Assembly: GCA_016928355.1 (NCBI GenBank)
Contig: JAFGKW010000056.1
Location: 1 to 64,000 of the forward strand
Direction of reading: 5' to 3'
Source of the DNA: Methanomicrobiaceae archaeon
GTDB taxonomy: Archaea > Halobacteriota > Methanomicrobia > Methanomicrobiales > Methanomicrobiaceae
DNA length: 64,000 bases
In this document: in pieces, positions 25,868 through 58,986 of the stretch
Layout of the letters: every line of letters begins with the position of its first letter
Numbering within the stretch: position 1 is the stretch's first letter
Program-made: the position numbers and the translations under genes
The notes under the pieces: generated by a model
What the model saw: only the letters and a program-made list of their open reading frames with translations
Databases searched by the model: none
What the model was told of the DNA's origin: nothing

Positions 25868-25942
25868 GGGGCCATAGGGTAGCCTGGACCATCCTAGGAG
25901 ACTGGGGGTCTTCTGACCTGCGTTCGAATCGCAGTGGCCCCA
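25868..25942 (+). tRNA. tRNA-Pro (anticodon GGG)
   Basis: Acceptor GGGGCCA pairs with TGGCCCC; anticodon stem GGAGA/TCTTC encloses loop CTGGGGG, giving anticodon GGG; T arm CTGCG-TTCGAAT-CGCAG is perfect; discriminator A, CCA not encoded. The D stem has one mismatch. An AT-rich TATA-like GTTAAATAAA lies about 35 bases upstream. Confidence 0.92.
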
Positions 25943-55591: not shown

Positions 55592-55643
55592 TTAGAGCAC
55601 GTCCTTGGTAAGGATGCGGTTGGGGGTTTGGATCTCGGCCGGA
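55592..55643 (+). pseudogene. Decayed 3' part of a tRNA-Thr-like gene
   Basis: TAGAGCACGTCCTTGGTAAGG reads like the 3' half of the D arm followed by an anticodon arm: stem CGTCC/GGATG with loop TTGGTAA, anticodon GGT (Thr). The T arm is degraded (GGGGGTTTGGATCTCGG) and the acceptor end CCGGAC is followed by no 5' half. A tRNA 3' remnant directly after proS fits an old attachment site for an integrating element. Confidence 0.45.
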
Positions 55644-55788
55644 CTGTTGTTTTTTGTATTTCTTAGCTCTATATTCTGATGTTTTTTAAAAATTGATTTA
55701 TGGTGTGAGCTGAGAACGGAAGCGAGATGGTTTCCAGGAAAAAGACCAGACGGAAGAAATAAACCGAATAGTTAACAAACTCTGAAAA

Positions 55789-56172
55789 ATGGGAGATTCA
55801 AAAGATCCAGATTCACAGGAAAATCTCAAATGGATTATGTACCATCTTGTAGCCTTAGATTATAGTCATGAAAAATATTCAAAAAAAATCAATGAATTGA
55901 CCGAACAAAAAAAGCTAAAAGATGCGAACTCTTCTGAACTAAGATCAATAATTCAGGAAATAAAGAAAATCAGTAGTTGGTATCAGGATTCTCTCCAAAC
56001 ACATCAAACCAAAGCAATCAATCATATCCCTGAAGGTAAAAGGAAAAAATGGGAGAAAGAATTTCGTGATAAAGAAAATAAATCGTGTTTTAATCTCTAT
56101 GTCGAAGATCAAAAACCTGATTTTGATCTCTCAATAAATGCATTCAAAAAAGGAAGCGAACTAAAAAAATAA
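55789..56172 (+). CDS. AT-rich orphan protein, 127 residues
   Basis: A hydrophilic, largely helical protein rich in Lys, Glu, Ser and Asn (MGDSKDPDSQENLKWIMYHL ... SSWYQDSLQTHQTKAINHI). No cysteine cluster, membrane segment or known motif. Base composition is much more AT-rich than proS before it. It lies between two tRNA remnants, so it is probably cargo of an integrated element. I do not recognise the family. Confidence 0.55.
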   Translation: MGDSKDPDSQENLKWIMYHLVALDYSHEKYSKKINELTEQKKLKDANSSELRSIIQEIKKISSWYQDSLQTHQTKAINHIPEGKRKKWEKEFRDKENKSCFNLYVEDQKPDFDLSINAFKKGSELKK

Positions 56173-56190
56173 TTGATTCATCAATGCATT

Positions 56191-56259
56191 TAGCCAAAGT
56201 GATAGGATCTTAAGATCCTGTCTTGTAAGAGTTCGAAGGTTCGAAACCTGCCGGTCTCA
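56191..56259 (+). pseudogene. Decayed tRNA-Leu(UAA)-like remnant
   Basis: TAGCCAA, then the arm AGGATCTTAAGATCCT, a Leu-type long variable arm (GTCTTGTAAGAG), the T arm GAAGG-TTCGAAA-CCTGC and CGGTCTCA as acceptor 3' end. The anticodon loop would be TCTTAAGA, one base too long, around TAA. The 5' acceptor strand and most of the D arm are missing. It resembles a tRNA 3' end left as an attachment site by an integrase; no intact tRNA-Leu is in the window. Confidence 0.6.
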
Positions 56260-56335
56260 TTTTTGTTTTAGTTTGTAGCATCATATTATAATGAATTGTC
56301 AATAACTGTTGGATGAAAGAAAGGAATCTGATAAC

Positions 56336-58444
56336 ATGGCCAATGACGAATCCTCATCAAAACCATTTTTTGATGAATTTATTGAAGGAAGTAAAATAAA
56401 TTGTTCAAAAGCATTGAATGATATTGAAGAGAAGCTAAAGAGACTAAACAAATTAGAAATCATCTCTAGATTATCGATTCTTACTAAGACCGAAATTGGA
56501 AAGTATTACATAGCAGATCATAGTATTTTTGATTTACCTTGCCTAAATTTTGTAATTGGTCTTGCATTGAAAAATGAATTCTGTAGTGACGTAAAACCTT
56601 CCAATGAAGATATTGATTTAATTCTAAAGGATTTGCAATTATATTTTTTACACTTTCTTCCGTCAATGATGCCAACATCTGGCAATAAAGAAAATATTGA
56701 CGATGTAATCTTCCATGCTCAAATGCATGCATTAATCAAGCAACTAAATCCTGAAAAGTATCCATTCCAAATGAAGGAATTACTTCTTGAAACATTTGGA
56801 AAGTTTGAAGAATATTTCTCTAAAAATTTTGGTTTCACGATCACCGATGTTATTATATTCAGTGAAAAAATAATCCAACAATATGAAAATTTGATAATTC
56901 AGAGAATAAGTAAAATAAATCATGCAAATACAGAACCTGGGATTGATTTTTTTTCAAAAACAGGAGATCTGTTAGCGATTGATCCTGAAGATTTTTGTAA
57001 ATCCAACTGTTGTGATATAATTAAATTTAAAAGGTATCTTGATGTTTTTTCATGTCACTTTGGTGAAGGGTCACCCACATACAACTCACCTCTTGATGAG
57101 AATATCTTCCTTAAAAAACCAATATTATGTTATAATGGACGATATTTTGCACCAATTCCCCAGGATTTATTCCAAAATTTACCCTTAATATTTGAAGGAA
57201 TATTAGAGGAAGAAAAACGTAAGAATTCAAAAGTTTGGCAAAAATATCAGGGAATTAAAGCTAAGTTTACTGAGAAAAAAGTAACAGAATATCTTGGGCG
57301 AGTTTTTGAAAAAGAAAAGGTTCATGAAAATTTATTTTATCCTATTGGGGAGGATAAGACTGCAGAAGTTGATCACATTATCCCATATTCCAATTATATC
57401 ATAATCGCCGAATCAAAGTCTGGAAACTTTACAATTACTCCAAAAAAAGAGGGTATTAATAGAATTTCTACAAACCTTAAAAAATTAGTCTGTGAGGCGC
57501 ACAATCAAGGATTAAGGGCTAAAGAATATATAAAAACCACGATTCCTGCGACATTTACAAATTCAAGAGGGAAAAAAATATTGGAAATTGAATATAAAGA
57601 AGATATTACCAGGTTTATTCTTATAAATGTGACATTAGAACCTTTGTTAAGTTTTTCAAGTAGCCTTAAAAATATCGAATCACTGGGACTTTTTTCTCAA
57701 TCTGAACTCCCATGGTCAGTTAATTTATTTGAATTAGATATCCTTACAAGGTGTATCGATTCACCTGCTGTTTTCCTTCATTACATAGAGAGACGACTAA
57801 GTACGCAAGAGACAGGTTTGTTTGCGGCATTTGATGAATTATCTTTCCTAGGTTTATATTTAGACAGGGGGAATTTCAACATTTATTTAGATGATGGTTC
57901 GATACCAACACAAATTCACTTAGATACTGAATTTTTAGAAGCTTTCGATGAACATTATTTACATGGAGGTGAACTTCCAAAATTAACGATTGAAAAAGAA
58001 ATTAGCGATATTATTCACGAATTAGAACAATTGCATCCTGAAAGATTCATAAATATTACAAATACAATTTTAGATTTAAGCCATGAAACGAGGAAGAGTC
58101 TGATTGAATATATAAATAAGATAATCTTCCTATCGACTACAGATGGGAAAAGGCATGATTTTTCTTTAATGACAGAAGTAAAAAAAACCGGAATTACTGT
58201 TTTTGCGCAAATAGGGACCGAAAATCTATATGATCATTTATCCTCATTTTGTTTGTTAAAAAAATATCAGTCGAAAGCCGACTGCTGGATTGGTCTTGGT
58301 ATTGACGTTTTAGATACAAAAAGATTCATCAATACCTATCTTTTTTATGATGAGAAATGGAAACGCGATAAAAGAATGGATAAAACAATAAAATTTAGTC
58401 TTGAAAAAGGGATTATTAAGGCGAAACCAGATTTTCAAAATTAA
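56336..58444 (+). CDS. Large AT-rich protein with PD-(D/E)XK nuclease-like core
   Basis: About 702 residues from ATG 56336; a TTG nine codons upstream is an alternative but a TATA-like ATATTATAATG at 56283-56293 puts transcription start near the TTG, favouring the ATG. Residues 1-300 are helical with no known domain. A nuclease core follows at about 310-410: EKKVTEYLGRVFEKEKVHEN, D346 in AEVDHIIPY, then E359-S-K361 in IIIAESKSG, a D-x12-E-x-K spacing as in NERD/PD-(D/E)XK enzymes. The C-terminal 280 residues are unassigned. AT-rich, next to a tRNA remnant, no partner genes: a single-gene defence or element-borne nuclease is a plausible inference only. Confidence 0.7.
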   Translation: MANDESSSKPFFDEFIEGSKINCSKALNDIEEKLKRLNKLEIISRLSILTKTEIGKYYIADHSIFDLPCLNFVIGLALKNEFCSDVKPSNEDIDLILKDLQLYFLHFLPSMMPTSGNKENIDDVIFHAQMHALIKQLNPEKYPFQMKELLLETFGKFEEYFSKNFGFTITDVIIFSEKIIQQYENLIIQRISKINHANTEPGIDFFSKTGDLLAIDPEDFCKSNCCDIIKFKRYLDVFSCHFGEGSPTYNSPLDENIFLKKPILCYNGRYFAPIPQDLFQNLPLIFEGILEEEKRKNSKVWQKYQGIKAKFTEKKVTEYLGRVFEKEKVHENLFYPIGEDKTAEVDHIIPYSNYIIIAESKSGNFTITPKKEGINRISTNLKKLVCEAHNQGLRAKEYIKTTIPATFTNSRGKKILEIEYKEDITRFILINVTLEPLLSFSSSLKNIESLGLFSQSELPWSVNLFELDILTRCIDSPAVFLHYIERRLSTQETGLFAAFDELSFLGLYLDRGNFNIYLDDGSIPTQIHLDTEFLEAFDEHYLHGGELPKLTIEKEISDIIHELEQLHPERFINITNTILDLSHETRKSLIEYINKIIFLSTTDGKRHDFSLMTEVKKTGITVFAQIGTENLYDHLSSFCLLKKYQSKADCWIGLGIDVLDTKRFINTYLFYDEKWKRDKRMDKTIKFSLEKGIIKAKPDFQN

Positions 58445-58517
58445 TAGATCTTTTATTAATGTGGCTCATTCCTTTCCGTGAATGCTACAAAATATTCATT
58501 TAAACAGATTTCAATAA

Positions 58518-58817
58518 TCACGAGGACCTGTATCCAAATATCTTATCATACTCCTTATGATCCATCCAGTCGATCAGCAGGGTTATCCGGCCTTCATCAT
58601 CTGATGCTATCCAGTATATCAGTCTCCATGATCTGTTGAGATCATACTTCCAGAGATTGTCCGGTTTGAAAACCTTATTGTATCTCTTTGGGATCAGGCG
58701 TTTTGGGATCTGAATCCCGGAAAAAGGATCTTTTTCTATATTATCAATCGCTTTATTCAGAGCCTTTAAAATGCGTTTGTCTTCCGAATACAAGGATGGT
58801 GCCTGATAAGACAACAA
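58518..58817 (-). pseudogene. N-terminally truncated RelE/ParE-type toxin
   Basis: A 99-codon frame whose body matches a RelE-like family with the segment RLIPKRYNKV...DNLWKYDLNRSWRLIYWIA and ending IDWMDHKEYDKIFGY. Such toxins cut mRNA on ribosomes. Family members normally carry some 20-30 more residues before DKRILKALNKAID; here the start lies inside a truncated MFS gene instead, so the N-terminus is replaced by an unrelated MLSYQAPSLYSE. No antitoxin gene is beside it. Probably inactive or a fusion remnant. Confidence 0.65.
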
Positions 58818-58986
58818 GATAGATTACCAGCGCCCAGGATACCGTACTAAGGTTCGAATCGAAATATCTTGCAATTGTCGGAAGCGATACATTGAGAAGG
58901 CTGATGTTGAACGATCCGATGAAGACTCCGATGCCGACTGTGAAAATTATCCATTTTACCGGCAGATGCGGACTGCTATCCTCCAT
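58753..58986 (-). pseudogene. Truncated MFS transporter (first two helices only)
   Basis: Seventy-seven codons covering the start and first two helices of a DHA2-type MFS drug exporter: WIIFTVGIGVFIGSFNISLL, NVSLPTIARYFD and STVSWALVIYLVVLSGTILV, then VFGR, where family members continue with a conserved D-x-x-G-R/K loop. After FGR the frame turns into QTHFKGSE and stops, because from about 58790 the DNA belongs to the RelE-like gene. A full MFS protein has 12-14 helices, so more than 80 percent is missing. Confidence 0.7.

Follow-up and report, generated by a model that had tools for sequence, protein, structure and literature searches.

The gene at positions 56336–58444 of the window (the whole 64,000-nucleotide stretch analyzed here, from a methanogen draft genome of 1.93 Mb that is 84% complete) probably encodes, at a likelihood that we put near 0.7, a nuclease that acts alone against viruses or plasmids and belongs to an undescribed, horizontally mobile family with an Upx-like fold. 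A defence role is also proposed for the 702-residue archaeal protein itself. The features of the locus are as follows.

55594–58778 (no strand): inserted or variable block running from proS to a truncated MFS gene, delimited by synteny with genomes G386 and G310.
55789–56172 (+): open reading frame of 127 residues, with no convincing family match.
About 56187–56262 (+): tRNA-Leu-like fragment, diverged and 5'-truncated, recognized by its score against shuffled sequences.
56336–58444 (+): the family gene (702-residue protein), from the open reading frame, the alignment and model, the Upx match and conservation.
57272–57508 (+): putative catalytic region with E313, E344-x-D346, E359-x-K361 and Q391, from homologue conservation and the NERD and Can2 matches.
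58518–58782 (-): YoeB/RelE-like toxin gene without its 5' end, from a Pfam YoeB match, intact relatives and the junction.
58783–58986 (-): remnant of an MFS transporter (residues 8–77 of 473), from comparison with an intact MFS gene.

The reading frame on the forward strand was uninterrupted to 58444 from either a TTG at 56309 or an ATG at 56336, and the 702-residue reading from the ATG was preferred because a Shine-Dalgarno-like aaaggaa precedes it. The first-pass annotation had described the gene as AT-rich and unlike its surroundings, and the composition bore this out: its GC content was 30.5%, whereas that of the flanking proS was 54% and that of the ferritin gene on the other side 47%. 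The encoded protein comprised a helical N-terminal region (residues 22 to about 300), a PD-(D/E)XK core (about 298–433), a helical linker and a C-terminal alpha/beta domain (about 555–690).

The same annotation had proposed a nuclease-like core from D346, E359 and K361 in a D-x12-E-x-K spacing. The residues were found as claimed. The spacing by itself turned out to be weak evidence, since 31% of shuffled versions of the 702-residue protein contain the motif; the core is nevertheless genuine, as shown by its conservation across homologues, together with the NERD match and the order of elements in the model. D346, K361 and Q391 were unchanged in all 50 aligned homologues, E313 was kept in 49 of the 50, and the position of E344 was occupied by E or D in the same proportion (49/50). 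At the E359 position, 14 homologues had E and 36 had Q, an exchange familiar at this type of position from the PD-(D/E)XK superfamily. Two further residues, R487 and E501, located in the helical linker after the core, were also invariant among the homologues. A Can2 profile matched the 702-residue protein with an E value of 9e-5, and the Pfam NERD model (PF08378) matched residues 319–379 of the TTG frame with an E value of 7e-4, its score of 20.5 bits being below the Pfam gathering cutoff of 22.1.

An AlphaFold2 model was built from a 48-row alignment of the family (A5), and it reached a pLDDT of 83.5 and a pTM of 0.86 for the 702-residue protein. It contained, in order, an all-helical N-terminal region, the PD-(D/E)XK domain, a helical stretch and the alpha/beta C-terminal domain. 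The elements of the predicted core were a helix (298–324), three strands (330–338, 341–351 with D346, and 354–361 with E359 and K361), a second helix (374–401) and a last strand (405–408). This is the alpha-beta-beta-beta-alpha-beta arrangement by which the PD-(D/E)XK fold is recognized, in which neighboring strands bear D and (E/Q)-x-K, as found in the model, in the conservation pattern and in the PDB matches. These results showed that the protein contains a PD-(D/E)XK nuclease core, the fold being a predicted one.

By the first-pass annotation, a non-nuclease fold would have spoken against the proposal; the predicted fold was that of a nuclease, and its best match among solved structures was a defence protein, Upx (PDB 9wuf, cryo-EM; Foldseek E 7e-6, prob 1.0). 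The VIA-align superposition placed model residues 22–568 on Upx residues 32–729 over 410 residues with a Z of 13.8, a value near the level that helical proteins reach by a common arrangement. This match spanned two domains in order and stood above all others, the next structural family being the nicking enzyme N.BspD6I (Z 10.9, about 177 residues). When the family profile (A5) was compared with PDB sequences at E<=10, no Upx chain was listed, and in the BFVD viral structures no match to the model was found below E 0.04. The resemblance to the Upx fold, as predicted, indicates how the family protein may work. The earlier view that the core lies inside two unassigned regions of about 300 residues each was thereby reduced to its C-terminal part, as residues 22–568 aligned with Upx and only about 130 residues at the C-terminus are left unassigned. 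Folded alone, the C-terminal domain gave a pLDDT of 81 and weak MPN/JAMM-like, EMC and phosphopentomutase matches with Z up to 5.5; Foldseek with this domain alone gave no match below 0.01.

Family members were mostly 700–740 residues long and annotated as 'SEC-C metal-binding' or 'NERD', and some were wrongly annotated as SecA or prepilin peptidase. The 702-residue protein showed the traits of the family, namely a length of about 700 residues, the E..ExD..(E/Q)xK..Q core, R487, E501 and the C-terminal domain, and it aligned to a Vibrio member over residues 84–695 of the TTG frame. A SEC-C zinc motif was present at the C-terminus of 81 of the 92 bacterial and viral-contig members and absent from the archaeal protein, which, judging from these alignments, either lost the SEC-C tail or never had one. 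Two Methanosarcina-like members carried SEC-C and lacked the alpha/beta domain. The C-terminal end of the family is therefore modular.

The family was widely, if patchily, distributed. Two sequence searches retrieved 30 and 35 plasmid records, GTDB contigs held 210 family loci (80 of them retrieved), and a member was found in 13 IMG/VR contigs; annotated phage records gave no family match. The GTDB and IMG/VR loci came from alignment A3, the mixed alignment A2 being too diverse for patterns, and pattern scans of both collections from the single protein detected no close relative. Within the phylum, 392 archaeal genomes yielded 12 with any match and seven with a near-complete one; the other sampled genomes of the source's own archaeal family had no family match. 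The gene was found in nine of 5426 E. coli genomes. In the tree, the 702-residue protein lay on a long branch (1.6), nearest to proteins of genomes G348, G061 and G339, and its identity to relatives was 20–30%. The tree intermixed bacterial phyla, and an E. coli copy was near-identical to a Providencia copy; both observations show horizontal movement.

The family gene stands alone, the strand, distance and size of its neighbors varying in nearly every locus. On the Gordonia plasmid pGKT2 (L078, 5535–20897), a relative was located within an apparent operon with helicase, DUF1156 and DUF499 genes, an exception to the stand-alone rule. On Agrobacterium and Rhizobium plasmids (L070, 4642–12160; L071, 5003–12142), the family gene adjoined a helicase gene and a phospholipase-D-like gene, an arrangement that is possibly a multi-gene variant.

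A survey of the neighborhoods of homologues, also proposed by the first-pass annotation, showed that plasmids, satellites and variable islands, and not housekeeping contexts, harbor the relatives. In E. coli GD33 (protein WP_228172888.1) and A20, the family gene was the sole cargo between psu and int of a P4-like satellite beside ssrA; this slot of P4 has been shown to be an antiviral hotspot and a reservoir of anti-phage systems (Rousset et al., 2022; PMC9122126). Seven further E. coli genomes held another copy (protein WP_049590371.1), and the two examined had it within an element at guaA that also contained a HigA-PIN pair, a YecA-family protein and two DUF262 proteins. The YecA-family neighbor in this element (L194, 19806–26006; L195, 16807–23007) was of about 779 residues. 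In archaeal relatives, a type III restriction enzyme, AbiEi and PbeA were found within about 10 kb. Known defence genes (PADLOC, E<=1e-60) were matched by about nine of 145 sampled genes located no more than two genes away from the family member (Drt4/6, HamB, PifA, SduA, AbiEi, QatD and methyltransferases) and by none of 135 control genes taken from arbitrary places in 20 of these genomes, for which the best match was 2e-31 (Fisher p 0.002). As the control was random chromosome and not accessory DNA, this enrichment shows an island context and not defence proper, and it could partly reflect accessory DNA in general. Literature searches that combined SEC-C or NERD with phage defence turned up neither a paper on the family nor an experiment on any member.

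In the window itself, homology to relatives ended at 55594, past proS, and returned at 58779, inside the MFS gene. The gene order in the same-genus genome G386 was proS, a pyruvoyl-dependent arginine decarboxylase gene (pdaD), an intact MFS transporter gene and the ferritin gene. In the window, pdaD and most of the MFS gene have been removed by an insertion or replacement (55594–58778), and pdaD did not turn up anywhere else in the source genome, at its 84% completeness. Both flanks of the insert were syntenic, so an assembly chimera is unlikely. The insert contained the 127-residue open reading frame, the tRNA-Leu-like fragment, the nuclease gene and the YoeB-like toxin gene. The first of these had a weak DNA match in a more distant genome (G172); none of nine close relatives had a matching protein. 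At the same spot in G310, the genome of a sister species of the genus (L027, 5032–6888), a 618-residue OLD/PARIS-type ATPase (PADLOC AriA E 8e-80, Old 4e-31) was encoded with an antitoxin-like small open reading frame. Because G310 holds a different gene there, the end of proS was regarded as a variable site at which defence-like genes have been acquired at least twice, and it looks like an archaeal defence-gene hotspot.

The first-pass annotation had also pointed to a truncated tRNA-Leu beside the gene, as is typical of integrating elements. The fragment at 56187–56262 scored 41–45 to tRNA-Leu TAA/CAG, against at most 24 in shuffles, and by this comparison it is a genuine relative of tRNA-Leu, so that part of the claim held. 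ARAGORN and Rfam recognized no tRNA gene at this position, and a piece 82% identical to it was located in G310 about 125 nucleotides downstream of tRNA-Leu(CAG). The fragment differed widely from the tRNA-Leu genes with which it was compared. Given this divergence, the lack of any integrase among the open reading frames of 55594–58778 and an insertion site at the end of proS and not at a tRNA gene, the idea of a recent attachment site was rejected; the fragment is old and diverged, not a fresh duplication, and the integrating-element context found no support. It may be the trace of an earlier element and does not indicate a current one. Elsewhere in the window, ARAGORN called a tRNA-Pro(GGG) at 25868–25942 for which the Rfam tRNA model was silent at its gathering score; the call may be spurious, or the gene degenerate.

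The nearby RelE-like toxin proved to be YoeB-like (Pfam E 8.5e-6), but not intact. Its open reading frame (58518–58817, reverse strand) was fused at about 58776–58783 to the truncated MFS gene, the toxin and the MFS gene being cut at the same point, and it was without the first 24 or so residues of its intact relatives, which have 112–113 residues (L032/L033). No antitoxin open reading frame was found beside it in the window. The toxin gene is probably a pseudogene.

The truncation of these adjoining genes raises the question of whether, in a family that may otherwise be defensive, this particular copy is a non-functional remnant within a decaying island. The missing SEC-C tail and the identity of only 20–30% to relatives agree with such decay, but 702 codons have remained uninterrupted at 30% GC behind a Shine-Dalgarno sequence, every catalytic residue is kept, and a full-length fold was predicted with confidence; we consider a remnant quite unlikely. 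Unlikely as well, in our estimate, is a nuclease that serves the maintenance or competition of mobile elements, by excluding a rival plasmid or satellite or by controlling replication, instead of a host antivirus system. The family does occur on plasmids, satellites and islands, with integrase, relaxase or partition genes near several copies. However, no partner from one element type was conserved, with neighbors that vary nearly everywhere, and the family also occurs in chromosomal islands alongside other defence genes. A cellular enzyme for DNA or RNA processing (repair, recombination) with no part in conflict is a very unlikely explanation: NERD and PD-(D/E)XK domains are found in repair nucleases too, but this family is patchy, with no match in 380 of the 392 genomes of the phylum or in the other sampled genomes of the source's archaeal family, and it is correspondingly rare in E. 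coli.

The stand-alone defence nuclease is the reading that we prefer, and the decaying island, the deep divergence and the missing SEC-C tail were counted against it. The initial proposal of a single large defence protein with a buried nuclease core was consistent with the non-housekeeping contexts and the Upx-like predicted nuclease, and its integrating-element part was not supported. In the mechanism that we envisage, the helical N-terminal region, acting with the C-terminal domain as a regulator or sensor, would keep the PD-(D/E)XK nuclease switched off, or direct it to the nucleic acid of an invader or to some structure made by a phage, and the SEC-C zinc tail would join the C-terminal domain in this task in most relatives. 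On a trigger, a metal-dependent D346/E359/K361 center, with E313 and Q391, would cut DNA, which could be that of the invader or the cell's own (abortive infection). The analysis shows the open reading frame, the predicted nuclease fold, the conserved catalytic residues, the mobility and single-gene organization of the family and the defence-hotspot context of relatives; we infer DNA cutting, defence, a trigger and, for the archaeal copy, activity without SEC-C. A broader proposal, to which we give even odds, sees in the family a hitherto undescribed immune system of one gene, extending from P4 satellites of enterobacteria to methanogenic archaea, in which a compact Upx-like nuclease is combined with swappable C-terminal parts (the alpha/beta domain, the SEC-C zinc tail or neither) that sense different signals of infection.

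A family that spans hundreds of species and has so far been labeled 'SEC-C metal-binding', 'NERD domain' or wrongly would in this way receive a testable function. It is an orphan family now tied to Upx, for which a solved structure exists, and the P4 satellites supply test cases in E. coli.

None of the PADLOC models matched the 702-residue protein. For other family members, PADLOC matches to PDC-S12 and to E1-E2/E2 were confined to the SEC-C tail (residues about 614–724) and therefore do not name the family, and a CARF-PDDEXK identity was set aside because its matches were weak and limited to the core. The NERD proteins of the Mokosh type I, Nhi-like and TALON systems are similar in that the core was recognized just under the Pfam cutoff and some relatives carry a 'nuclease-related domain' annotation, but the kinase domain, helicase domain or fixed partner described for those systems is absent here (PMC10952713, PMC12458937). 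The CRISPR ancillary nucleases Can2, Card1 and Cdn1 and the Shedu protein SduA share the PD-(D/E)XK core with Z of 6.4–7.0, which is in the common-fold range, and no CARF sensor domain was matched in our protein. N.BspD6I/FokI-type nucleases resemble it as nucleases with a helical surround, at the Z given above; they differ in that neither a DNA-recognition domain match nor a methyltransferase partner was found here.

The closest known system is Upx, reportedly described in 2020 by Gao and colleagues as a single-protein anti-phage system. It has been reported from defence islands (PMC12629846, PMC12824646). Both are single large proteins in which the helical N-terminal region and the PD-(D/E)XK core superpose. 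Nevertheless, Upx has 1212 residues against 702 here, its C-terminal 480 or so residues are without a counterpart, the identity between the two proteins is 8%, and our protein has a C-terminal alpha/beta domain of its own, to which most relatives add the SEC-C tail. Because our protein lacks this large part of Upx and no sequence relation was shown, it was not assigned to Upx.
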